From a virus, in IMG/VR virus record IMGVR_UViG_3300045135_001024, positions 1 to 25,941 of that record: a stretch of 25,941 nt of DNA, one strand, 5' to 3'. This document shows positions 3,226-25,362 of this stretch, in pieces. Under the pieces are notes generated by a model. That model worked only from the letters and a program-made list of their open reading frames with translations. It had not been told where the DNA came from and did not search any database. A program made the position numbers and the translations under genes. Position 1 is the stretch's first letter. Each line of letters starts with the position of its first letter.

Positions 3226-4137
3226 ATGGCTTATATAAATCAGAAAAAATATTATACAAATGATGGAACAGCTCCTACTAATGAGAATTGGGGTTCTTAT
3301 CAATATGTAAGTCTTGAAGATATTGTAAACAATTTCCAGCTAATGTATAGCGGCAATCATTCTTTAGTTAATAACGAAGAAAGGTATAAGATATTGTTTC
3401 ATGCTAAAAGAGGTATTCAGGAATTAAATTATGATGCCTTTAACAATGTAAAAGCATTAGAGCTTACTGTATATGATGATTTAAAATTCATCTTACCGCC
3501 AGACTATGTTAACTGGGTAAGAATATCTCTCTATAAAGATGGATGGATTAGACCACTTACAGAAAACATTCAGGTTAATTCAGCTACTTCTTATCAGCAG
3601 ACATCTAGCACGCCTAATTTTTCAGGCAATGATGTAATTACAGAGCAATCACAGCTTGATACAGATAGACTTGATGGTAATCAAAAAAGCATTTATTTAA
3701 ACCAAGTAAACGCAGAAAACCAAATACCTCAAGATACGCAAGCAAATTGGTACGCTGATTACACCATAGGAGCTCGGTATGGTCTTAATACAGAGACAGC
3801 CAACATAAATCCTACTTTTAGAATAGATAAGGCAGCAGGAGTCATTAATTTTGATTCTACAATGGCTAATGAAAATTGCATATTAGAGTACTTATCAGAT
3901 GGTATGGAAAACGGAGATGATTCTAAGGTGCAATTAAATAAGCTTTTTGAAGATTATATATATGCATACATAGAATACGCAATATTAAATAGTAAGTTCA
4001 ATGTACAGGAGTACATCATTAATAGAGCTAGAAAAAGAAAAACAGCTTTACTAAGAAACGCAAAAATTAGACTAAGCAATATTCACCCTGGTAGATTACT
4101 AATGAATCTAAGAGGAGAGAGTAAGTGGATTAAGTAA
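3226..4137 (+). CDS. Neck/tail ring protein (T7 gp11-like adaptor type)
   Basis: A 303-residue protein. The central motif FHAKRGIQELNYDAFNNVKALELTV followed by LPPDYVNWVRISLYKDGWIRPL is, from memory, a hallmark of a ring/adaptor protein found in crAss-like and other Bacteroidota podoviruses next to the muzzle gene, and is comparable in role to T7 gp11. Residues about 105-150 are a polar Ser/Thr/Gln-rich segment. The C-terminus (YIYAYIEYAILNSKFNVQEYIINRARKRKTALLRNAKIRL) is a basic helical tail, as expected for packing against the neighbouring ring or DNA channel. Its TAA stop overlaps the ATG of the next gene by one base, implying translational coupling with the large tail protein. Confidence 0.7.
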   Translation: MAYINQKKYYTNDGTAPTNENWGSYQYVSLEDIVNNFQLMYSGNHSLVNNEERYKILFHAKRGIQELNYDAFNNVKALELTVYDDLKFILPPDYVNWVRISLYKDGWIRPLTENIQVNSATSYQQTSSTPNFSGNDVITEQSQLDTDRLDGNQKSIYLNQVNAENQIPQDTQANWYADYTIGARYGLNTETANINPTFRIDKAAGVINFDSTMANENCILEYLSDGMENGDDSKVQLNKLFEDYIYAYIEYAILNSKFNVQEYIINRARKRKTALLRNAKIRLSNIHPGRLLMNLRGESKWIK

Positions 4138-7100
4138 TGGCAAATATTCAAAGAAATTTTATAAGAGGCCGTATGAACAAAAGCCTTGATGAAAGGCTTT
4201 TACCAAATGGTGAATATATTGACGCATTAAATGTAAGACTTGGTTCTACCGAGGACTCTGAATATGGTTCGGTAGAAAATGCAAAAGGTAACACTGGGCT
4301 AACAACTATTATGTTTGATGGAGTTGAGCTTAGTAATAACGCTAGATGTATAGGTGCTTATGAAGATGGGGCTAATGAAACCATTTACTGGTTTATACAC
4401 GACCCAGCTTTTACTTTGGGAAACACAAGCAAGCTTGACCTAATTGTTTCTTATAATACCACCAATAACTCTACAACCTACCATGTAATAAGTCTTGACG
4501 ATGGCGGTGGTATAAATACTACTTTAAACTTTAGCCCATATCACTTAATTACTGGAGTTAATCTTATTGATAACTCTCTTTTGTTTTTTACGGATAACCT
4601 TAATCCACCAAGAGTAATAAATGTAAATAGAAGATACGGAGCTCCTACCAACAACCTTGATGGGTTTACTGCGGAATCATTGATGGTTATAAAAAGACCA
4701 CCGGTTGCCGCTCCGACAATTCAAACTTTTAATGTAGTAGGGCAGGAGGATGATTACTTAGAGGAGCGGTTTATTGCTTTTGCGTATAGATATAAGTATG
4801 CAGACAATCAATATTCAGCTACTTCTCAGTTTAGTGAATATGCTTTTAATCCTTCAACTTTTTCATTTAGCTATAATAGTTATTTGAATGAAGGAATGAA
4901 GAATACCAAAAATGCGGCGATTATAACTTTCAATTCAGGAGGTTCGCTCGTAGAGGGTATCCAGTTGCTTTTCAAAGAATCTACCACAAACAATATTAAA
5001 GTCATAGAGTATTTAGATAAATCTAATTTAGGATACTCTAATGACACAGATTACACTTATACGTTTGATAACAGTAAGATATTTACCTTACTTCCAGACT
5101 CAGAGCTTTTAAGATTATATGACAATGTACCTATCATAGCTAAAGCCCAAACTATAATGGGCAATAGAGTTGTCTATGGAAACTATAAAGAGGGCTATGA
5201 TTTAAAAGACAAGTTTGGTAATGATATAAAATTAGAGTTTGAGGCAGATTTAAATAGCACTCAAATTGCTACTTCTGAGCTTGTAGATACTACAGGAGCG
5301 GGATACTATACCATAGGGCCAACGCCAGTTAATGTAAATAATGCTATAATATACTTTGATTTATCAAATCAAAACGGAACAACCTTAGAACTTACTGCTG
5401 GCTCAACTATTTCTTTAGATTTCACTATTGCTCATAGTCAGTTTACTGATAACACGCCATCAGCTACAACTTCACAGACCAGTATATTATTTGAATATAT
5501 ACTTCCTGTAGACTTTAATAATGTATATTCATTAGCTACAAGCACAGATTTTATTGAAAAGGTTGGTACTGCATCAAACATACAGCCAGTGTCAACTGCT
5601 TGCGATGGAGCTACACTAACAGATATAATAAATTGTGCGCTTCCTTCTACGTTAGGAACATACACAAAAACTGCAAGTGGTATTACTGCAACAGGGCAGC
5701 CTATTGAAATTATATCGTCTCCAGCAAGCAATACTATTGGACTTCAGCTTACAGCTATGCAGTATGTAGATGGAGTTAATAATGCTTATGAGTTTTACGA
5801 GGTTCAAACAGCTACAGCATTTTTTAGCAATCTTGATAATCCAAGAAGCTTACATAGTAATAGAGGATATGAAGTAGGTATAGTTTATATGGATAGTTTC
5901 GGGCGCTCATCTACCGCTCTTGTAAGTCCAGATAATACTGTAGAAATACCATGTCAAAACTCTATTGATAAAAATGAAATAAGAGTAACAATACCAACTC
6001 AGCAGTTAGCTCCAAGTTGGGCAACAAGATATAAGTTCGTATTAAAACCATACGAATCTACATATGACACAATATACACTAGCATATATTTTCAAGACCC
6101 TGATAGCAATGCCACATACTTTTTATTAGAAGGTGAAAACGCTAATAAGGTAGAAGAGGGAGATAGATACTTTGTAAAGTCTGATAGCTCAGGACCAGTG
6201 CTAAGATGTGTTGAAGCTACTGTATTAGAAAAAGAAACTAAAGCAGCAGACTTTATTACTCCAGTAAGTGGAGCGGCAGTTCCGTCAGGGACATATATGA
6301 AAATTAATCCAAATAATTTTTCTACTACTAGAGAGGACAATGCTATTGTAAGTCCAGGCGTATTAGATGACCAAACCAGTTCTGGAGGAGATTTTCCATT
6401 TGTTAAATATCCACTTAATCTTGACCCCGTAAGTCCTAGCACAACATATACAGATTATTCAGTCCCTTCTGGAAGTAGAGTTGTTATATCTATAAGACAA
6501 GAAAGATTAGGTACTGGGGATGGAGATAGAAATTGTGAAAGAAGGATAAATACTATTGACCTAGAGCTTATATCTTCACAGGATTATAATAATATTTCTG
6601 ATTTCTTTTATGGTGATAATGTGTCTACTGTATTTACAGAAAGAGCTGTAACTGAAGTAGGAGGTGATGGCGACCCTATTGTCAACACATGGCAATCAGC
6701 TATATCAGGAGCTTCAGACCCTACTATAAGTGATATAAACACTTCAGAAACCACCAACTACTATAGAACTTACAGAAACACAACAAGCAATCAGTTGTTT
6801 TTATTAGCTACTGGAACTGAAATGTGTAGTGGGGTTATTAATGCAAACAAAAGACGTTCAAGTGTAAGTGTAGAAATTCAAGTTTACAGAACAGATTCTG
6901 TTATAACATTTGAAACACAGCCTACTGATGCACTATCAAATGTTTGGTATGAAAACCACTTATCTTTTCCTATTGATACAGATGGTATGCACAGTGGTAA
7001 TGTGCAAAATCAAACCTCTGGTCAATCAGCGATTATTGATACAGAGTTCTCAAACTGTTACACTTTTGGAAATGGTGTAGAGAGCTACAAGATGTTAGAC

Positions 7101-9728
7101 TCTATAACAGGTAAAACATTAAATCTTGGAGAGCGTGTTACATCTACATCTAATATGGACTATAAGCAGGAGCATAGATTTGCTGATTTGACTTATAGTG
7201 GTGTATATAACGATGAGACGAACGTAAATAAACTAAATGAGTTCAACCTAGGGCTGGCTAATTTTAAGCCATTAGAAGAGTCCTATGGGCCTGTACAGTT
7301 ATTAGATGGTAGAAAAACAGATATTCTTACCCTACAAGAAGATAAAATATCTTATGTTTTAGCAGGTAAAAATTTACTTAGTGATGCAACTGGTGGCGGA
7401 GCGGTCACATCTGTCCCTGAAGTATTGGGAACGCAGATAGCTAGACTAGAAGAATATGGTATTAGTGAAAACCCTGAGAGTTATGCATCCTATGGCCCTA
7501 ATAGATATTTTACCGATGCCAAGCGCGGAGCGGTAATAAATCTAATTGGTGGTGCGTATAATAACGAGCAGCTTCAAGTTATATCAGAGGCTGGAATGCG
7601 CTCATGGTTTAGAGATTTATTTATAGATACTTTCCAAACGCAAAAGCTAGGAGGATTTGACCCTTACATGAATGAATATGTACTACATTCAAATGTACAG
7701 TTGCCTCCAACAGATGATGAATGTTTGCCTTGTGATACAACAAAAAGCATCGTAATAGAGCCTAATACAACATTTACATATTGCGTGGATGTTGGCGATT
7801 TATTAGGGCTGGTTGATATTGATTATGAAATACCTTTTGATGGGTTCGCCAATGTAGTTACTGAAACAAATTCAAATGTAATAACGGAAGCGTTTTCTGA
7901 TGAAATAGTTCTTGAGGCACAAACAAGCTCAACTTATTATACAATAACAGCAACATACAATGGAGTATCTCACAGCACTGGCCCAGTAAATCAGAGCGGC
8001 ACATTAACATTTAATAAAAACAGTGTTAATACCACCACAGTTGAAATTACTGTTACTCAAGATAGCACTACTTCAGACACCATTGATATAACAACTGGAT
8101 GTCCACAAGCACAAGAAATAACAATTTACAATGTAGCTGTTACAAGTAATTCAGACGCTGGAGAGTTTATTACTAATCAGTACAGATGGACTGACGGAAC
8201 ATTTACATCTCCGCTACATTCAGAAAGAATACAGTTTTCTTCAAGCAATACAAACCCAATAGTATCTCAGTACAATTTTGTAGCTGGATTCCAAGGCGCA
8301 GGAGTTATACCTGGAGATGCATCTATAGTATCAATAATAAGTAGAAAACAAAGTTTTGACAATTTTGTTTTTGATGCATCTAAAAATAAATTAAAATACC
8401 TAAGAACAAATACTTTCTATGGTAATAATGGAAGTGATATAAATAGTTTGTTGGCAGCAGCAGCTGATACGACAGTTGTAAGTGAAACCAATCCAAATCA
8501 ATTTAGCGGTAGCTTTACATTGCCATCAGGCGGACAGTTCTTGTATTTAATATGGGATTACAGAAAACCATCTAGTGCAAACTTATGTTTTTCTACTACA
8601 AGTACATCAGATGCTTGTACTGGATGCACATTCCCAACACCTACCCCTACACCAACTCCGACACCAGCTCCTGTATCTTACAGATGGTTGATTGAGTCTG
8701 GTACTGGTAGCGCAACAAGTCCATCTACTTGTCCATTTGCAGCTACACCTATTTATAGTGCATCTAGTTCATTTGCTACAACAACAACTGGCAGCACATT
8801 ATTCTATACAGATGCCTCCTTAACAACATTATTCCAAGGAGGAGATAACTACTATGGTGTAAGAGAGCCTAATAAAGGATATGGTATTTGTGAAGGGATA
8901 TTTAGAATGACAGATATAGGTACAGTTTCTAATATTGATACTGCTGGTGTGTGTAATGTTACACCAACTCCGACTCCAACTCCGACTCCAACTCCGACTC
9001 CAACTCCGACTCCAACACCGACACCTACTCCTACTCCTACTCCAACGCCGACTCCAACACCGACTCCAACACCGACACCTACGCCTACACCTAGTCCTGC
9101 TGCTGTTTGGCAAATAAATTATCAATCTGGTGCTGGTGGAGGATGGAGCACTATATCTCAATCTTGTGGTCAAAATACATTTGGAGATACATATGTTGAG
9201 TTAGTAGGCTCAACCACTGGATATTTAGATACTCAAGCTAAATTAGATACGGCTTATGCTGGAGGGGAAACAGTGTATGTATACAACTCCGATTTAAGTC
9301 AGTTTGTAGGAGGCAACTCATATTATGGAATTGCTATAAGTGTTGACGTGCTTGGAACAGCTCCTGGAATAACAGTACAAATTGATTCAGTAGGAAGATT
9401 AGTTGATTTAGGAACTTCATTCTACTCAAGCTGTTTGCAAGAATTTACAATGACAGCTCTAAATACTTATTGGAGTACTTACTTAGATGCTTGTAACAAT
9501 GGACCTTCTGCTGCAACTCAAACATATTATCACGATGGTTCTTCTTTATGTTTAGCTGCTTCTGATGTTGTATATATGGATAGCACAAAGAAAGAAACGA
9601 TAGCCGATGCTATAGCTACTACTGGTAAAATTTGGTATCAAGGCTCTTCATGTGGAACTGGCGGTGCTGGTCAAGCATTAGAATTTGATAGCTCAGGCGG
9701 ATATGTAAATGGAATAGGAAATTGTTAA
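4137..9728 (+). CDS. Giant muzzle/tail-stabilisation-type protein with Pro-Thr linkers and C-terminal fibre modules
   Basis: An 1863-residue virion protein. It opens with [27 protein letters not shown], a signature I associate with the muzzle (stabilisation) protein of crAss-like and related phages, which closes the distal tail. The core ends near residue 1190 with [41 protein letters not shown] and [14 protein letters not shown], all typical of that family. Residues about 1195-1490 look like Ig-like or beta-sandwich material ([29 protein letters not shown]). After a Cys pair (CTGC) comes a 13-residue Pro-Thr linker (1500-1512), a beta module to 1607, a 45-residue P(TP)22-type linker (1610-1654, one Ser), a second related module to Cys1766, and a final module ending in Cys1863. 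The C-terminal additions are probably surface-exposed fibre or adhesin elements. The next gene encodes the same kind of modules 9 bp downstream. Confidence 0.72.
8634..8672 (+). repeat. Short Pro-Thr linker repeat
   Basis: Thirteen codons alternate Pro and Thr (ending Pro-Ala-Pro) and separate the CTGC end of the muzzle core from the first C-terminal module. All four Pro codons are used, so the amino-acid pattern is kept despite DNA divergence. Confidence 0.9.
8964..9098 (+). repeat. Long Pro-Thr linker with exact 12-bp tandem repeats
   Basis: Forty-five codons encode strictly alternating Pro and Thr (one Ser). The first 48 bp (8964-9011) are four exact copies of CCAACTCCGACT; the remainder is a degenerate 6-bp pattern. 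Local GC is clearly higher than in the neighbouring AT-rich sequence. Unit lengths are multiples of 6, so gain or loss of units keeps the reading frame. Confidence 0.95.
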
Positions 9729-9737
9729 AAATAAAAA

Positions 9738-10547
9738 ATGGCAACACTAGGAACATATTATTTTGATACTGCAAGCTTTGCAAATGCAACTACTGTTTAT
9801 GACGATGCGAATTTAACTACAGTATCAGCTAATGGGTGGTATTCAGACTCGTCTATAGTTAGAAAGCAGGTATCAGGGGTATTATTGGCAGCTCAAAGTT
9901 GTGCTGTGCCTACTCCAACTCCTACACCTACACCCACGCCTACTCCCACACCTAGTCCAACGCCTACACCTAGTCCCAGTCCAACGCCTACACCAAGTCC
10001 AAGCCCTACGCCTAGTCCAACGCCAGGGCCTACGCCTAGTCCTAGTCCAACTCCGAGCCCTAGTCCAACTCCTAGTCCAGCTCCGACTTATGACTATTTA
10101 TTACAACAATGTTCAACTGGACAGCAATACAATGTTTCATTACCACAACAAGTAAGCTATGGAACTTCTGTAGAATATGCGGGTCAATGTTGGGAGGTAT
10201 ATGGTCCAAATACAGGAACGCCACAAGCGATATCTCCTCAAGGATACTATTCAAACTGTACAGCTTGTGCAGGAACGCCTAGTCCTAGTCCAACACCTAG
10301 CCCTTCACCTAGTCCTACACCGACACCTAGCCCAACTTGCTATGCTATTTATTTACAAAAAAGTACTTCTGTTTGCTCGGGAACTTATAATTCTTATTTC
10401 TTTGACACCTCTTCTTTAAGCACAGCTACAATTGCTTTTGCTAACAGTGGATGTAGCACATATGCAACGCCAGGGTATTATACGCAAGGTGCTTCATATA
10501 GATATTGGAATGGCTCAAGTTTCACTTTATCAGGAAGTTGCTATTAA
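9738..10547 (+). CDS. Modular Pro-Thr/Pro-Ser fibre protein
   Basis: A 269-residue probable virion surface protein, not assignable to a named family. Three small beta-type modules are joined by two Pro-rich linkers. Residues 1-57 ([23 protein letters not shown], ending in Cys) form the first module, followed by a 59-residue PT/PS linker (58-116). The second module, residues 117-180, carries LLQQC...GQCWEVYG...NCTAC. Then come a 19-residue PS/PT linker (181-199) and a C-terminal module ending GSCY. The second module is clearly related to the N-terminus of the 610-residue protein at 13510 (RLQSC...GNCWKVYG...GCTLC). Modules tend to begin or end at Cys, suggesting intramodule disulfides or metal sites. 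It lies 9 bp after the muzzle-type gene and just before the hydroxylase, so it is a plausible substrate for the modifying enzymes. Confidence 0.7.
9909..10085 (+). repeat. Pro-Thr/Pro-Ser linker repeat
   Basis: Fifty-nine codons with Pro at nearly every second position and Thr or Ser between, one Gly and one Ala. The DNA is an irregular mix of CCTAGTCCAACG-like 12-mers. Ser codons here are AGT/AGC, which cannot arise from ACN by wobble changes, so the Ser content reflects separate units. Confidence 0.92.
10278..10334 (+). repeat. Pro-Ser/Pro-Thr linker repeat
   Basis: Nineteen codons of alternating Pro with Ser or Thr separate the CWEVYG module from the C-terminal module of the same protein. 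It shares CCTAGTCCTAGT-type units with the longer linker upstream. Confidence 0.9.
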
Positions 10548-10574: not shown

Positions 10575-11720
10575 ATGGTTGAAATACAGAATTTTCTCAC
10601 TCAAGATGAGTGCAGTGGACTAATTCAAATTATAGAGAAAAACCACCAACCTTCTACAGTGGTTTCGGGTTCTGGAGGAACTTCTATAGATGACAAAAGT
10701 CGAACGTCAAGCACTTGTAATTTAAGTCACACCGACCCCTTAGTAAAAAGTGTTTTCTCAAAAATAGCAAACCATCTAGGTTTGGATGAAAAGAGAGGTG
10801 AAAACATTCAAGGTCAGCTCTATGAGGTAGGTCAATACTTTAGACCTCATCACGATTTTTTTAGTGGTCCTGCTTATAATGAGCATTGTTTGCATAGCGG
10901 AAACAGAACGCACACCTTGATGATTTATTTAAATGATGACTTTGAGGGTGGTGGAACTAACTTTCCAAAGCTTAATACCATAACTCAGCCAGAGACAGGG
11001 AAAGCTGTAACTTGGGAGAATATGATAGATGGCCAAACTCAAGAGGACACTATGCACGAGGGTATGCCAGTAACGTCAGGGAAAAAATATATTATTACAT
11101 CGTGGTGGAGAGAGCGCGAATGGGGAGCGGCTAAGCCTGCTCCGCTCAAAGTAGTTCCTAATATACCTAAGCTTACTGATATTGGTTTTGATGTTGTAAA
11201 AGTGCCAGACCATATATGGGGTATTATTCAGGATTCATACCATATATTAAAAGACAGAACTGTAGAAGAAGACTTTCCAGGTAAAGAAACATTCATACAA
11301 GGAGGTAGTCAACTGATGTCGTATGATAATATACCACACATAAGAGGCATGATACACAATCAGCTTTTGCCGATACACCGAGAGTTTGCAGGAGTTGATA
11401 TAGAGCCTACATTTGTGTATGGTATAAGGTCGTACCTAAGAGGAGCAACGCTTGCTATGCACACAGACAGAATAGAAACTCATCATGTTTCATCTATAAT
11501 TATAGTTGATAAAGATTTAAAGTGTGGATGTCAAAGCAGAGAGTTTGGAGACGATTGGCCGCTAGATATCAAAGGGCATGATGGCAACTCTTATAAGGTT
11601 TATGCAGAGCCTGGAGATATGATACTTTATGAATCTGCATTATGCGAGCACGGAAGAACAGAGCCTTTTCAAGGGACTTTTTATAGAAACTTTTTTATGC
11701 ACTATAAAATTGTTCAGTGA
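10575..11720 (+). CDS. Two-domain 2-oxoglutarate/Fe(II) oxygenase, prolyl 4-hydroxylase type
   Basis: A 381-residue enzyme predicted to hydroxylate its substrate using O2, 2-oxoglutarate and Fe(II). The N-terminal domain (about 1-182) has the full prolyl 4-hydroxylase pattern: YEVGQYFRPHHDFF with iron ligands His92 and Asp94, RTHTLMIYLNDDFEGGGTNFP, the distal ligand His161 in HEGMPV, and the 2-oxoglutarate-binding Lys171 ten residues later in SGKKYI. The C-terminal domain (about 195-381) looks like a second, different 2OG oxygenase: YGIRSYLRGATLAMHTDRIETHH with His296 and Asp298, then GDMILYESALCEHGR with His359, and Arg361 or Arg371 as candidate 2-oxoglutarate contact. Both sites appear intact. 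It is flanked by proteins with Pro-Thr linkers, overlaps the radical SAM gene by 4 bp (GTGA), and precedes a hydroxyproline-type glycosyltransferase, so Pro in the linkers is the natural candidate substrate (inference). Confidence 0.87.
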   Translation: MVEIQNFLTQDECSGLIQIIEKNHQPSTVVSGSGGTSIDDKSRTSSTCNLSHTDPLVKSVFSKIANHLGLDEKRGENIQGQLYEVGQYFRPHHDFFSGPAYNEHCLHSGNRTHTLMIYLNDDFEGGGTNFPKLNTITQPETGKAVTWENMIDGQTQEDTMHEGMPVTSGKKYIITSWWREREWGAAKPAPLKVVPNIPKLTDIGFDVVKVPDHIWGIIQDSYHILKDRTVEEDFPGKETFIQGGSQLMSYDNIPHIRGMIHNQLLPIHREFAGVDIEPTFVYGIRSYLRGATLAMHTDRIETHHVSSIIIVDKDLKCGCQSREFGDDWPLDIKGHDGNSYKVYAEPGDMILYESALCEHGRTEPFQGTFYRNFFMHYKIVQ

Positions 11721-12625
11721 TAAATTTTATACAAATAGACCCTAATGGTTTGTGCAACGCAGGATGTTGGTTTTGCCCAGTTTCAATTCACGGGAATCCT
11801 AGCGAGCATAGAAGTCAAATGCCACCAGAGCTTTATGAATCTATTATAAAGCAAATAGTAGAATTAAAAGGCGAGCTTGTAAATCCAAGGCTGCATTTTG
11901 TATATGCCTCTCATTATAATGAGGTGTTATTGTACAGGCATTTTGAGGAAATGTTACAGATACTACAAAAGTATAATCTTACATTATGCTTGCTAACTAA
12001 TGGTGTTCCCTTGACTCCAAATAAAATAGACCTTATAAATAAATATCCTGGAGTGGTTTCTCAAATAGCAATCAACGCACCAGTATACCAAAGGGAGTTG
12101 TTTGAAAAAAGAACAGGTATGCGTGAGAAGTTATTTGAAACACTAATCAATAACATTTATTATGCTCAAAACAATCTCATAAATAAAAATATATTGTTGT
12201 TGCAAATCAATGGTATTGACAACAGGTCTAATATTATCAAGCTAAAAAACTTTCCAGAGCTGCAACCGAACGAACTGGAAACGCAAACTAGAATAGCAAA
12301 GCAATTATTCCCAGGAATAAGCGTTACGACTCAATGGAATCTTATTGACAGAGCTGGATTATTGCAAGATGTTATGGGGAATCCTCTACCTGAAGGCAAG
12401 GTTATAGGATGTTCTTCTAAAAGAGATACAGAGTGGCTTCATGTTACACCAAAAGGTGAAGTGTTTTTATGTTGTAATGATTACAATATGGACTATGTAT
12501 TTGGAGATTTGAATAAACAAACTTTAAAAGAAATCTGGACAGGGCAAAAGCGACAAGAGGTTATGCAAAAAGCTTTTGGAGAAATATGTACATCTTGTTC
12601 AGTTGCAATTTTTAATCATGAATGA
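11717..12625 (+). CDS. Radical SAM enzyme with SPASM-like C-terminus
   Basis: A 302-residue enzyme of the radical S-adenosylmethionine superfamily. The N-terminus holds the cluster motif C13-x3-C17-x2-C20 (NGLCNAGCWFCPV). The C-terminal part has a SPASM-type arrangement: Cys232, then LHVTPKGEVFLCCND with Cys252/253, FGDLNKQTLKEIW, and Cys291/Cys294 (ICTSC), which probably bind an auxiliary Fe-S cluster. SPASM enzymes commonly modify peptides or proteins, but some act on sugars or cofactors, and the substrate cannot be read from sequence. The start is GTG at 11717, overlapping the oxygenase stop as GTGA, which fixes the start just before the cluster motif and suggests coupled translation. The end overlaps the glycosyltransferase by 8 bp. 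The tight order argues that all three enzymes act on one target. Confidence 0.85.
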   Translation: MINFIQIDPNGLCNAGCWFCPVSIHGNPSEHRSQMPPELYESIIKQIVELKGELVNPRLHFVYASHYNEVLLYRHFEEMLQILQKYNLTLCLLTNGVPLTPNKIDLINKYPGVVSQIAINAPVYQRELFEKRTGMREKLFETLINNIYYAQNNLINKNILLLQINGIDNRSNIIKLKNFPELQPNELETQTRIAKQLFPGISVTTQWNLIDRAGLLQDVMGNPLPEGKVIGCSSKRDTEWLHVTPKGEVFLCCNDYNMDYVFGDLNKQTLKEIWTGQKRQEVMQKAFGEICTSCSVAIFNHE

Positions 12626-13487
12626 AAGTATATTTGTTAATATAGCATCGTATAAGGATAGTGATTTAATACCAACCATAGACGATTTATATACAAGAGC
12701 CGCTCAGCCAGAAAGAGTTTTTGTTGGCGTTTTTTTACAAGACACACCTCAAGCAACAATAGATGTGCTAAGTATATTGAAGGGGCATCCTTACAGAAAC
12801 AATATGTTCTTACAGACTATTGATGCTAATAAAGCTAAAGGTTGTGGATGGGCAAGAAATGTAATATCAAAACATCTATATGGTGGGCAGGATTACTTTA
12901 TGTGTGTTGATTCGCACTCAAGGTTTTTAAATAATTGGGATACCACTTATATAGACATATATAAAAACGCTCCAGAGAATGCAGTAATAAGTGTGTTTCC
13001 ACAATCTTTTGATTTTAATCAGTCATACGAGCAGTATACCAAAAGAAATATAGCTACTATATACACGCCTCACGAACTTCCTTGGACATCTGCTTTTAAT
13101 AAACCACACTGTCAAAGACATCCTAAGATGGCCTATGAAAGAGTAAATCAAATATCTGGAGGTAATATTTTTGGAGATAAGAGATTGGCAAAAGCTATAA
13201 CATTAGACGATTATACATTTAAACATAATCAAGAACAAGAGATATACTCACTACTTATATATCTACATGGTTTAGATTTATATGCAATACCACAAAATAT
13301 AGTGTGGCATAAATACATAACTACAGATACTTACAGGGAATTATTTCAACCTAAAGACATAGAATATCGTTTGAATTTTCTACACGATTTAGAGTACAAA
13401 CAAAAAGACAGAACTATAAAAGACTGGGTCGCTTTGATACAAGCTGATTGTGATGACTGTAAAAAGACAAAGCAATTAAATTCGTAA
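12618..13487 (+). CDS. GT60-like (GNT1/Skp1-type) glycosyltransferase
   Basis: A 289-residue glycosyltransferase. The frame is open from an upstream ATG at 12576, but ATG 12618 gives MNESIFVNIASYKD, where the domain begins, and a short overlap with the previous gene. Family features, from memory of the GlcNAc/GNT1 family (CAZy GT60): IFVNIASYKDSDLIPTIDDL at the start, PERVFVGVFLQ (residues 31-41), GCGWARN (75-81), the DxD-like Asp98-Ser-His100 in CVDSHSRF followed by NNWD, QISGGNIFGD, and LYAIPQNIVWHKY near the end. Characterised members transfer alpha-GlcNAc from UDP-GlcNAc to hydroxyproline of Dictyostelium Skp1 or to Thr of Trypanosoma mucins. No signal peptide or membrane segment is seen, so it is cytosolic. 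Neighbouring Pro-Thr linkers offer both acceptor types. Donor and acceptor specificity are inferred. Confidence 0.78.
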   Translation: MNESIFVNIASYKDSDLIPTIDDLYTRAAQPERVFVGVFLQDTPQATIDVLSILKGHPYRNNMFLQTIDANKAKGCGWARNVISKHLYGGQDYFMCVDSHSRFLNNWDTTYIDIYKNAPENAVISVFPQSFDFNQSYEQYTKRNIATIYTPHELPWTSAFNKPHCQRHPKMAYERVNQISGGNIFGDKRLAKAITLDDYTFKHNQEQEIYSLLIYLHGLDLYAIPQNIVWHKYITTDTYRELFQPKDIEYRLNFLHDLEYKQKDRTIKDWVALIQADCDDCKKTKQLNS

Positions 13488-13509: not shown

Positions 13510-15342
13510 ATGTCGTTTTACTATAGGCTACAAAGCTGCGATAATTCAAGTGTTTTTGTTGATGCGTCTTTTACCACGCAACAATCCATCAACCATACTT
13601 ACCAAATATATGGTCTTGCCCCTGGACAAGGAGTTGGTAATTGTTGGAAAGTATATGGTATCGCCTCATCAGGACAATTTATAACTATAGCAGCAGACTA
13701 TGGTATTAATGGGTGTACGCTTTGTAACACTCCCACCCCTACACCTACACCAGTTACTTCATATGCTTGGCAGTTTAATGCGGTACAGGGTAATGGTTCG
13801 TTTGTTAAGCCAACCTCCTGCGTAAACTGTCCTGTAACAGTATACTCTGACGTAAATTCGTATAGTGGTGTAACCTGTGGAACACAGCACTTTTGGGTAG
13901 ACGCTAATCTTACTACACCATTTAATGGTAGTAATCAATTTTATATAGCCACCCCAGGTTCGTCTCCAGCAACAGGAACGGGAATGTTGCTTATTGAGCC
14001 TGACGGAACTGTAACTAATAAGTACGACTGTAGTGGAACGAATATATGCGGAGGAGTTCCTACACCTACACCCACGCCTACACCCACGCCTACACCCACC
14101 CCGACACCTACACCCACACCTACACCGATTCCTGTAACTCCTGACTATTGTCTGAGCGGCACGAATGCCACAACAATTCAGGCTATTGGTTCGGGCAATG
14201 TATTTGTCTTTGGCGGTAATTATGGTATATATGGTACAGGAACTGGTATATTTGTTTTAACTGGTGTCCCATCGGCGCATCCTATTGCTATCCAAAACTT
14301 TGGCAAAACAAGTTTGATAGAATATGATGGACAGTATAGCGCAGGAACTAAGACAGGATTAGACGGAAATGTATATGAATATTTTTATGGAGATGTAACT
14401 ATCACAGTTACTGGCAATTATGGCACACTAAGTTATGAGTGTTATAACCATGGATATATGGGGGGTCAGAACAACTTGATGTTTGATAATGCCACTTGTC
14501 CTAACTTACAGCCTCCTATCATACCTCCTCAAGGAGACCCTACTTTGCTTTATACTCTTACTTATAGTGACAGTGTAAAAGGATGGCCTTCATTCTACTC
14601 TTACTATCCAGACTGGACAATAGGTATGAATAATTATTTCTACAGCTTCAAGGGTGGTAATTTATACAGACACAATACCAACGAGGTTAGAAATAATTTT
14701 TACAATGTACAGCACAACTCCACTATAACAAGTGTATTTAATGAGCAGCCACTAGAGAATAAGTTATTTAAAACCATAAACTTAGAATCAGACAGCTCAT
14801 GGTCTGTTACATTAGACAGTGATATACAAACAGGAGCTACCATAGATAGTACTTGGTTTGAGAAGAAAGAGGGAGCTTGGTTTGCATATATAAGAAACAA
14901 CGGAACACAGCCAGCAGGTTCTGATGAATATTCGATGCGCTCTGTGAATGGTATCGGTAGAAGTTCTTCGGTAAGTATTGTAGGCACAAGTACTATAATA
15001 AACTTTGCAACCAATCCATTAATAGAGATAGGAAGTGATATAGCGGTAGGAGATATAGTTTATTACGCTCCGCCTCCTTACACTTCTATAGAGATGGCGG
15101 GGCAAGTAATAGCTATAAATATAGACTTGCAGAACGCCACTAACAATATAGTTATAGACAACTCAATCTCTGGAGCGGTAACTATACCAATTCAAGATGG
15201 GTTTATAATGTACATTAAAAATCAGCAGGCTGAATCTAACGGAGTGTTAGGTCATTACTGCCAATTTACAATAACAAATACAGATACTACAGCTACTGAG
15301 TTATTCGCAGTAGAGTCGGAAGTAATGAAAAGCTATCCCTAA
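13510..15342 (+). CDS. Modular tail/fibre protein with Pro-Thr linkers and a cupredoxin-like domain
   Basis: A 610-residue probable virion protein. Residues 1-73 repeat the CWxVYG module of the 269-residue protein (RLQSC, GNCWKVYG, GCTLC). A 7-residue PT linker (75-81) leads to a module (82-183) related to those in the 1863-residue protein (FWVDANLTTPFNG). A 25-residue PT linker (184-208) precedes a beta domain, about 211-330, with His257 and the motif YEC311YNH314GYM317GG. That is the His...Cys-x2-His-x2-Met ligand set of type 1 copper (plastocyanin-like) sites. The C-terminal half (YSDSVKGWPSFYSYYPDW, NNYFYSFKGGNLYRHN, NKLFKTINLESDSSW, FEKKEGAWFAYIRN) resembles a domain common in large tail structural proteins of marine and Bacteroidota phages, so the protein is very likely virion-associated. 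It has its own putative promoter and sits directly after the glycosyltransferase. Confidence 0.75.
   Translation: MSFYYRLQSCDNSSVFVDASFTTQQSINHTYQIYGLAPGQGVGNCWKVYGIASSGQFITIAADYGINGCTLCNTPTPTPTPVTSYAWQFNAVQGNGSFVKPTSCVNCPVTVYSDVNSYSGVTCGTQHFWVDANLTTPFNGSNQFYIATPGSSPATGTGMLLIEPDGTVTNKYDCSGTNICGGVPTPTPTPTPTPTPTPTPTPTPTPIPVTPDYCLSGTNATTIQAIGSGNVFVFGGNYGIYGTGTGIFVLTGVPSAHPIAIQNFGKTSLIEYDGQYSAGTKTGLDGNVYEYFYGDVTITVTGNYGTLSYECYNHGYMGGQNNLMFDNATCPNLQPPIIPPQGDPTLLYTLTYSDSVKGWPSFYSYYPDWTIGMNNYFYSFKGGNLYRHNTNEVRNNFYNVQHNSTITSVFNEQPLENKLFKTINLESDSSWSVTLDSDIQTGATIDSTWFEKKEGAWFAYIRNNGTQPAGSDEYSMRSVNGIGRSSSVSIVGTSTIINFATNPLIEIGSDIAVGDIVYYAPPPYTSIEMAGQVIAINIDLQNATNNIVIDNSISGAVTIPIQDGFIMYIKNQQAESNGVLGHYCQFTITNTDTTATELFAVESEVMKSYP
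13732..13752 (+). repeat. Short Pro-Thr linker
   Basis: Seven codons of alternating Pro and Thr join the Cys-rich first module to the second module of the 610-residue protein. Confidence 0.85.
14059..14133 (+). repeat. Pro-Thr linker repeat
   Basis: Twenty-five codons of alternating Pro and Thr (one Ile near the end). The DNA is built largely from CCTACACCCACG-like 12-mers, a different unit from the CCAACTCCGACT unit of the 1863-residue gene, so the two arrays expanded separately or have diverged. Confidence 0.92.
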
Positions 15343-24265: not shown

Positions 24266-24646
24266 CTAGGGTCTGACATACTTGAATAGTTTTTTATCAT
24301 CAAAGGATAGTATCAGCTCGCCTTCTTCTGACCACAAAGCTCTACCCACCAACCCTTCAATGGGCAGGTAATATATACCATCTATACATGACCAAATCAT
24401 TACAGCGTGCAGGCGCTTGTCTCTAAGCTTGATAATCTTTCGAGCTTTAACTGTCAATGGAAATGAATGTTTCATTTCAGTATCGAGTACCTTAACTTCT
24501 GCGTACCCTATAACCGATTTGTTTTCACCCAGTATTCTAAAGTCTACATCATCAGGGCTAAGCTTCTTATAGCTACCTCCCAGTCTTCTCAGGTAAAGCT
24601 CTATAGCTTGCTTCTCTTTAGTTATATCTTGGTCTTGTTCAAACAT
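24266..24646 (-). CDS. PD-(D/E)XK nuclease-like protein
   Basis: A 126-residue protein with the pattern of a minimal PD-(D/E)XK nuclease: a helix with Glu16 (QAIELYLRRLGG), acidic Asp33/Asp35 in DDVDFRI, then a strand carrying Glu50-x-Lys52 in GYAEVKVL, followed by a beta/alpha region (HAVMIWSCIDGIYYLP). Spacing between the Asp and the ExK is about 15 residues, as in small Holliday-junction-resolvase or VRR-NUC-type folds. It probably cuts or processes phage DNA. The ATG overlaps the stop of the metallophosphoesterase by one base (TAATG), so the two are co-translated. The exact subfamily is not recognised. Confidence 0.6.
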   Translation of the reverse strand: MFEQDQDITKEKQAIELYLRRLGGSYKKLSPDDVDFRILGENKSVIGYAEVKVLDTEMKHSFPLTVKARKIIKLRDKRLHAVMIWSCIDGIYYLPIEGLVGRALWSEEGELILSFDDKKLFKYVRP

Positions 24647-25362
24647 TATAGCTCCATCAAACAGTTAATAGCTGTGTGTCCTCCAAGGACAACACCACAC
24701 CCTATAGCTTGCTTCTTGAAATGTTTTGCGTATGCCGCAGCATAAGAGCTGCCATCAATACCACAACCTACCTGCATACCAAAGATACGGAAGTTTCTAC
24801 CCACCATCCACTCAGTATACGCTTGAGTGTGTATATGGCCCTGGACAGTAGACATCATATCGTTCTTGGCTTTTGTTCGGGCCGTTCCGCCTTCCCCGTG
24901 AATGTACTGGACATTATCATACACAACACGCTCAACCCAATTCCACTGAGTACCAAGCACATCGTTATAAGATTTAATCCACATACTAGGAATGTCGGAG
25001 GTCTGTGCTTTACGCATTATCATTCTATCGTGGTTTCCAATGACTACATCTGCAACTGGAAAAGCTTCTTTCCATTTAGACACAACCTCAATCGCGTGAT
25101 ACAACTCATCCGCTCCACCCATACCATCGCTTGATGTTTCGTGGTAACTGGTGTAGTGATTGTCAATTATATCACCAATAAATACTACTTGATTGCATAG
25201 ATGTTTAGCGTAGGTATGCTGACAGAACTCTAAATACCCTTCTAGTTCAAACGGAGCATGGATATCCCCGATGACTAAGATTCGCCTTTCGTCTGTTGTC
25301 AGATTATCGTAGGCTATTTTCTTGTCTCCTTTAAGCCTAGGTCTGAAGTCTTTATAACTCAT
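24646..25362 (-). CDS. Calcineurin-like metallophosphoesterase
   Basis: A 238-residue hydrolase with the complete dinuclear metal signature: GDIHAP (Asp33, His35), GDIIDN (Asp64), GNHD (Asn110, His111), then His155 in YIHGEGG and GHIH (His176, His178). It would hydrolyse phosphodiesters or phosphomonoesters. Phage members of this superfamily lie in DNA-metabolism clusters and act on nucleotides, nucleic acid ends or phosphoproteins. The substrate here is unknown. The partner PD-(D/E)XK gene follows with a 1-base overlap, suggesting joint action on DNA. The start overlaps the preceding small gene by 11 bp. Confidence 0.82.
   Translation of the reverse strand: MSYKDFRPRLKGDKKIAYDNLTTDERRILVIGDIHAPFELEGYLEFCQHTYAKHLCNQVVFIGDIIDNHYTSYHETSSDGMGGADELYHAIEVVSKWKEAFPVADVVIGNHDRMIMRKAQTSDIPSMWIKSYNDVLGTQWNWVERVVYDNVQYIHGEGGTARTKAKNDMMSTVQGHIHTQAYTEWMVGRNFRIFGMQVGCGIDGSSYAAAYAKHFKKQAIGCGVVLGGHTAINCLMEL

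Follow-up and report, generated by a model that had tools for sequence, protein, structure and literature searches.

What does a glycosyltransferase (GT) of family GT60 do among the tail genes of a phage? The question is raised by a 25.9-kb contig of a marine phage (IMG/VR record IMGVR_UViG_3300045135_001024, positions 1 to 25,941; this whole stretch is referred to as the window), whose virion structural block matches that of crAss-like podophages. GT60 is encoded here by the last gene of an overlapping trio, set amid crAss-like tail genes, which also encodes a tandem 2-oxoglutarate (2OG)-Fe(II) oxygenase, designated P4H2, and a radical SAM-SPASM protein. On balance, this cassette seems to modify the phage's own virion proteins: Pro-X repeats would be hydroxylated and then glycosylated, with GT60 providing the sugar-transfer step. 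The analysis establishes the identities of the genes, the conservation of catalytic residues, gene linkage, the swapping of glycosyltransferases and the co-occurrence of the cassette with the repeats. The most informative part of the locus, on which the first-pass annotation of the window did not remark, is the prolyl hydroxylase in the operon together with the Pro-Thr repeats of the flanking virion proteins.

The GT60 gene and its operon

At the sequence level the gene at 12618-13487 is a member of GT60. Its open reading frame (ORF) is complete and uninterrupted and translates to 289 amino acids (aa). Membership had been proposed from motifs alone, with another GT-A family as the alternative, and the profile search bears the proposal out. 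The best Pfam match is PF11397 ('GlcNAc', the GT60 family), at 127.1 bits and E=1.4e-36 against a curated cut-off of 21 bits; the runner-up, GT2 (PF00535), scores far lower and falls short of its own threshold. A PHROGs search returned phrog_24687 'glycosyltransferase' (9e-24), and a PDB sequence search gave no significant match. The motifs lie at residues 5-14 (IFVNIASYKD), 75-81 (GCGWARN), 98-100 (DSH), 105-108 (NNWD) and 230-233 (WHKY). All are thus present as first described except that WHKY, taken to be terminal, is internal and followed by 56 residues. Residues D98, S99, H100, R102, F103, W107, D108, H231 and Y233 are invariant across 15 aligned viral GT60s, so that the DxH metal motif (DSH with the downstream His H231) is found in all of these members. 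DSH is the metal motif of the related family GT27 as well. Since it is both invariant here and shared with GT27, DSH is not an oddity of the window protein; by analogy with GT27, H231 may serve in metal binding. The same cassette genes occur in the same order on an independent 59-kb contig, with a GT60 that is 97% identical, and the GT60 gene is therefore not an assembly artefact.

The cassette and the genes around it are arranged on the plus strand as follows.

4137-9728, + strand: large virion structural protein (phrog_14478, 1e-233), candidate substrate, with C-terminal Pro-Thr (PT) runs at 8634-8675 and 8964-9101
8964-9101, + strand: Pro-X run of 23 units within the large structural protein (repeat scan)
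9738-10547, + strand: Pro-Thr/Pro-Ser repeat protein, 269 aa, directly 5' of P4H2, 40 Pro-X units (repeat scan), candidate substrate
9909-10088, + strand: Pro-X run of 30 units (repeat scan)
10278-10337, + strand: Pro-X run of 10 units (repeat scan)
10575-11720, + strand: P4H2, tandem 2OG-Fe(II) oxygenase, 381 aa, with an N-terminal prolyl 4-hydroxylase domain and a second apparent 2OG domain at the C-terminus (PF13640 5.5e-16, PDB profile, fold search, conservation)
11717-12625, + strand: radical SAM-SPASM protein, 302 aa (PF04055 and PF13186, alignment)
12618-13487, + strand: GT60 (PF11397) glycosyltransferase (Pfam E=1.4e-36, viral alignment, tree)
13510-15342, + strand: structural protein with the crAss muzzle C-terminal domain (PF25729, 5e-19) and PT linkers at 13732-13755 and 14059-14136, candidate substrate

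The P4H2 and radical SAM genes overlap by 4 nt (GTGA), and the radical SAM and GT60 genes by 8 nt. As the earlier annotation held, this is a phage virion operon: both flanks are structural (phrog_14478 on one side, PF25729 on the other).

A profile built from 31 P4H2 homologues was compared with the PDB, and 10 of 10 matched sequences were prolyl hydroxylases. They include those of Bacillus anthracis (the best, at 2e-36) and Chlamydomonas, chlorovirus vCPH, and 3gze, the Chlamydomonas enzyme crystallised with (Ser-Pro)5. The top folds retrieved with a predicted P4H2 model agree with the profile search. Residues H92, D94, H161 and K171, expected to bind iron (the HxD...H triad) and 2-oxoglutarate (the Lys), are 100% conserved in 76 homologues. 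Judged by profile and catalytic residues, the N-terminal domain is a predicted prolyl 4-hydroxylase (P4H). The C-terminal half holds a second set, H296xD298...H359 with R361, that is 98-100% conserved in the same 76 homologues. This second apparent 2OG domain (window 11160-11717) has an intact HxD..H and a CGC motif; the window copy has no significant PDB-sequence or Pfam match, and the copy in a marine Bacteroidetes contig discussed below matches PF13640 weakly.

Within the three virion-block proteins, runs of four or more Pro-X units total 87 units, in which X is Thr in 61, Ser in 18, Ala in 3, Val in 3, Gly in 1 and Ile in 1. The window thus contains the clustered AP/SP/TP/VP dipeptide repeats typical of arabinogalactan proteins (AGPs); Ala/Ser/Thr-hydroxyproline (Hyp) dipeptide repeats are the arabinogalactan glycomodules of plants (PMC7769824). 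Synonymous codons are mixed within the repeats, and no perfect 6-nt tandem exceeds 20 nt in a 138-nt run; what appears to be kept is therefore the pattern of the protein and not a DNA microsatellite.

The phage type is supported by the muzzle domain and by synteny of the structural block with phage MW202828, which carries a 'putative glycosidase' at the cassette position and lacks the cassette itself. Because homologues of the structural block are present in Cellulophaga and Flavobacterium phages, the host is likely to belong to the Bacteroidota. The protein encoded after the muzzle gene (136 aa) weakly matches acetyltransferases. On the minus strand, 24646-25362 encodes a metallophosphatase-like protein (PF00149) and 24266-24646 a small protein with no Pfam match.

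Hydroxylase, repeats and exchangeable glycosyltransferases

The combination recurs well beyond the window. A first scan recovered relatives of the hydroxylase from 113 viral stretches, of which 80 were kept. Further scans brought the set to 148 viral P4H2 ORFs, and 70 of these remained after removal of near-copies (at least 90% identity). Four interchangeable GT families occupy the downstream slot: a 276-aa GT8-like family, GT60 (with or without O-FucT), GT32 and O-FucT. One of these lies within 3 kb downstream in 60 of the 64 P4H2 loci with enough downstream sequence, near-copies removed. These GTs are often accompanied by epimerases or carbamoyltransferases, or by a DegT aminotransferase together with an acetyltransferase. 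A same-strand ORF with a Pro-X run of at least five units is found near P4H2 in 39 of the 51 loci with enough flanking sequence, and it is often the ORF directly upstream. Loci found through neighbouring genes and devoid of P4H2 served as controls: Pro-X runs occur in 1/43 crAss-like and 2/58 siphophage-type tail controls, and these GTs in 0/43 and 0/58. The association of Pro-X with P4H2 has a Fisher p of 4.5e-22, a value that treats relatives as independent. On a crAss-like tree, Pro-X runs are present in 40/44 P4H2-positive and 1/33 P4H2-negative phages. Hydroxylase and GT are also found together in phages with a tape-measure-like gene (L106, L107, L112, L118, L160) and in phages with a different major-capsid-like gene (L154-L156), one of which (L156) has two PT-rich proteins near the pair. 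Independent support for the coupling comes mainly from such unrelated phage types.

The clearest case of exchange involves the window's nearest relatives by structural gene, L088 and L089, in which that gene is 90% identical to the window's. They keep the hydroxylase, but in place of the radical SAM and GT60 genes they have genes for the 276-aa GT, for a DegT aminotransferase and for an acetyltransferase-like protein. From this difference in the GT slot, the hydroxylase appears to be the constant part of the system and the sugar step the variable part. The radical SAM-SPASM protein is seen only alongside GT60 (10/10 radical SAM-positive P4H2 loci) and so probably serves the sugar or the step of GT60. 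Fusions also occur in the slot: GT60-GT32 (L128:5573-6988), O-FucT-GT60 (L137:8317-10251) and O-FucT-carbamoyltransferase (L126:2476-5040).

The 276-aa family (L109:1129-1959 and 22 other P4H2 loci) matches nothing in Pfam or NCBIfam. Its predicted fold (predicted local distance difference test score 90) is GT-A/GT8-like, closest to glycogenin (Z 16.0), LgtC (15.5) and Skp1 Gat1 (6mw5, 14.5), and also near the PBCV-1 capsid GT. The family may be related to the plant hydroxyproline arabinosyltransferases (HPAT, GT95), a likeness suspected by eye on which the predicted fold is neutral.

The description of the window enzyme as eukaryote-like is not supported. GT60 is common in prokaryote genomes (187 encoding stretches in one scan) and in viruses (143 in another). 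On a tree confined to phage and bacterial rows, the nearest sequences to the window enzyme are from phages and its nearest cellular relative is on a Bacteroidetes single-cell contig. P4H-linked GT60s cluster on this tree (30 phage rows, 6 changes vs 27.6 in shuffles), and the window GT60 falls in a 13-row P4H-linked clade with a Shimodaira-Hasegawa-like approximate likelihood ratio (SH-aLRT) support of 99. A general link between GT60 and P4H was rejected: a hydroxylase lies near 0/79 other viral GT60 loci and only 6/80 bacterial ones. The bacterial cases include L325 (Burkholderia dolosa), L294 (Nocardia takedensis), L319, L316 (Polaribacter aquimarinus) and L266, whose radical-SAM-like and peptidase-ABC-type proteins point to a locus for a peptide natural product.

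L247, a contig attributed to a marine Bacteroidetes single cell (CACLQQ010000020.1, 33-512, 5075-6058, 6831-8117 and 8114-12715), carries a gene for a P4H2 homologue in which both domains are present, followed by one for a 1533-aa protein that combines O-FucT with two GT60 regions. An epimerase is encoded there too, as is an SPTV-repeat protein that has a stretch rich in arginine near its N-terminus. A locus of this type, on a contig that could be bacterial or viral, could be the source or a relative of the phage cassettes, possibly their cellular counterpart. Elsewhere, in freshwater or other phages (L407-L424, L470, L472, L475), P4H2 and GT60 or O-FucT genes stand beside a helicase-like gene, with no Pro-X repeat within the stretch examined; the substrate may be encoded elsewhere in those genomes.

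A proposed pathway and its rivals

From these observations we infer the activities, substrates, sugar and biological role of the cassette. (i) The N-terminal domain of P4H2 would act on the (Pro-Thr/Ser)n linkers of three virion proteins, encoded at 4137-9728, 9738-10547 and 13510-15342, and hydroxylate their prolines. (ii) GT60 would transfer a sugar, probably an alpha-linked N-acetylhexosamine from a UDP-sugar, onto the hydroxylated repeat. The acceptor is most likely Hyp, as for Gnt1 of the Skp1 pathway, a GT60 enzyme that acts on Hyp and requires hydroxylation by PhyA (PMC6939170); a neighbouring Thr or Ser is the alternative. Two observations favour Hyp: a P4H stands in the same operon as GT60, and the P4H-linked GT60s group together on the tree. 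(iii) The radical SAM-SPASM protein would probably make or alter the sugar or the peptide specifically for GT60. The result would be a sugar-coated stalk or sheath, rigid and polyproline-II-like, which would stand on the tail or muzzle and either shield the particle or tune its adsorption. Exchange of the GT in related phages, with the hydroxylase kept, would change this coat. Over all P4H2 loci, X is Thr in 1648 units, Val in 639, Ala in 531 and Ser in 507, Pro being fixed by the search pattern, and long Pro-Val (PV) runs occur. There is no side-chain hydroxyl in PV-only stretches, so the acceptor there would have to be Hyp if the repeat is glycosylated.

Several points weigh against modification of virion repeats through Hyp. 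No Pro-X run of at least five units is found in 12 of the 51 loci, several of which have Pro-rich stretches of other periodicity. The crAss-like tree shows only 2 changes of P4H2 state, so that the Fisher p overstates independence, and an independent-pairs test rests on 1-2 pairs; the correlation of Pro-X with P4H2 rests on few independent gains. The 79 other viral GT60 loci without such a hydroxylase nearby indicate that the GT60 family is not tied to Hyp. Finally, X is 78-94% Thr/Ser in 8/8 radical SAM-GT60 loci scored, a composition that also fits direct glycosylation of Thr/Ser.

This last point leads to a mucin-type pathway, which is unlikely though not far-fetched. GT60 would add alpha-N-acetylglucosamine (alpha-GlcNAc) directly to Thr/Ser of the PT/PS repeats, and separate prolyl hydroxylation would only stiffen them. 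The family includes the polypeptide alpha-GlcNAc transferase of mucin-type glycosylation in Trypanosoma cruzi (PMC6939170), viral GT60s without a nearby hydroxylase are common, and the Thr/Ser share of X in the radical SAM-GT60 loci contrasts with 12-60% in eight O-FucT-only loci. The near relative L088, however, is also Thr/Ser-rich yet uses a different GT, so that composition may be inherited and not matched to the enzyme. X varies over all P4H2 loci, in which long PV runs exist, and P4H-linked GT60s form clades of their own; these points, too, count against the mucin-type reading. A second possibility, distinctly improbable, directs the enzymes at the host: GT60 would alter a glycan or a protein of the host surface (to prevent superinfection, for instance), the hydroxylase would act on a host protein such as EF-Tu, and the position among tail genes would be incidental. 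Phage GTs that alter the host surface are frequent, and EF-Tu-modifying prolyl hydroxylases are among the PDB fold matches of P4H2. In many phages the cassette nevertheless keeps its place inside the structural block, flanked by the large structural gene and the gene for the muzzle, and in other phage types it sits beside tail genes; it also co-occurs strongly with Pro-X virion repeats that are nearly absent from relatives lacking P4H2. That the cassette is merely carried-over cargo, a Bacteroidetes surface-glycoprotein locus devoid of virion function, is very improbable. The P4H2 homologue, the 1533-aa O-FucT/GT60 protein and the SPTV-repeat protein on one stretch of L247 would suit such an origin, but the catalytic residues are conserved across divergent phage copies, and the cassette has been retained repeatedly, with its GT swapped, in several phage types.

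A wider generalization can be offered tentatively, as a possibility that falls somewhat short of an even chance. One conserved tandem 2OG hydroxylase, together with sugar-nucleotide genes and exchangeable GTs (GT60, GT32, O-FucT and a GT8-like family not represented in Pfam), may form a widespread, sugar-modular phage system that turns virion Pro-X repeats into Hyp-linked glycoprotein stalks.

Relation to known glycosylation systems

Plants, algae and protists are the main groups in which Hyp O-glycosylation is known. The literature searched (open-licence PMC papers, mostly titles and abstracts) yielded no account of it in phages, and within that literature the system would be a variant of prolyl-hydroxylation-dependent glycosylation that is new in phages. 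If the proposal is true, Hyp O-glycosylation extends to bacterial viruses, and a concrete function is given to phage 2OG oxygenases that are currently annotated as auxiliary metabolic genes. It would also suggest a mechanism for rapid coat variation by the swapping of one gene, and offer small soluble enzymes for producing Hyp-glycoproteins in bacteria.

Among phages, the GT60-like genes of XacN1 and a Stenotrophomonas phage belong to the same family (25-27% identical to the window GT60) but, within the stretches examined, have no annotated structural genes next to them. Virus-encoded enzymes of both kinds are familiar from giant viruses. Mimivirus has a collagen lysyl hydroxylase and glucosyltransferases for its own structural proteins (PMC9546862), and chlorovirus PBCV-1 encodes a P4H and a capsid GT (PDB 5c5t and 2p6w, both among the matches here). 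These are eukaryotic viruses, however, whose systems involve hydroxylysine and collagen or other capsid glycans and differ from a P4H-GT60 pair acting on Pro-X repeats. The mucin-type GT60 system shares the enzyme family (PMC6939170) and targets Thr/Ser of Thr/Pro-rich proteins; it is a Golgi pathway that requires no hydroxylase, whereas the phage operon has a P4H. Plant and algal hydroxyproline-rich glycoproteins (AGPs, extensins, mastigonemes) resemble the proposed substrates in their AP/SP/TP repeats, modified by P4H and then by O-glycosylation (PMC7769824, PMC11015965), but they depend on other GT families and a secretory route, the phage proteins here being cytosolic. The Skp1 pathway of Dictyostelium and Toxoplasma, whose target is a eukaryotic protein, likewise pairs a prolyl 4-hydroxylase (PhyA) with a GT60 (Gnt1), a pairing seen here from gene linkage. 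It also uses a GT32 (Glt1), recalling the GT32-like domain fused to GT60 in phage L128. The phage version differs in its operon setting, its tandem-domain hydroxylase and its radical SAM partner, and its likely targets are repeat-rich virion proteins in place of the one Skp1 proline.
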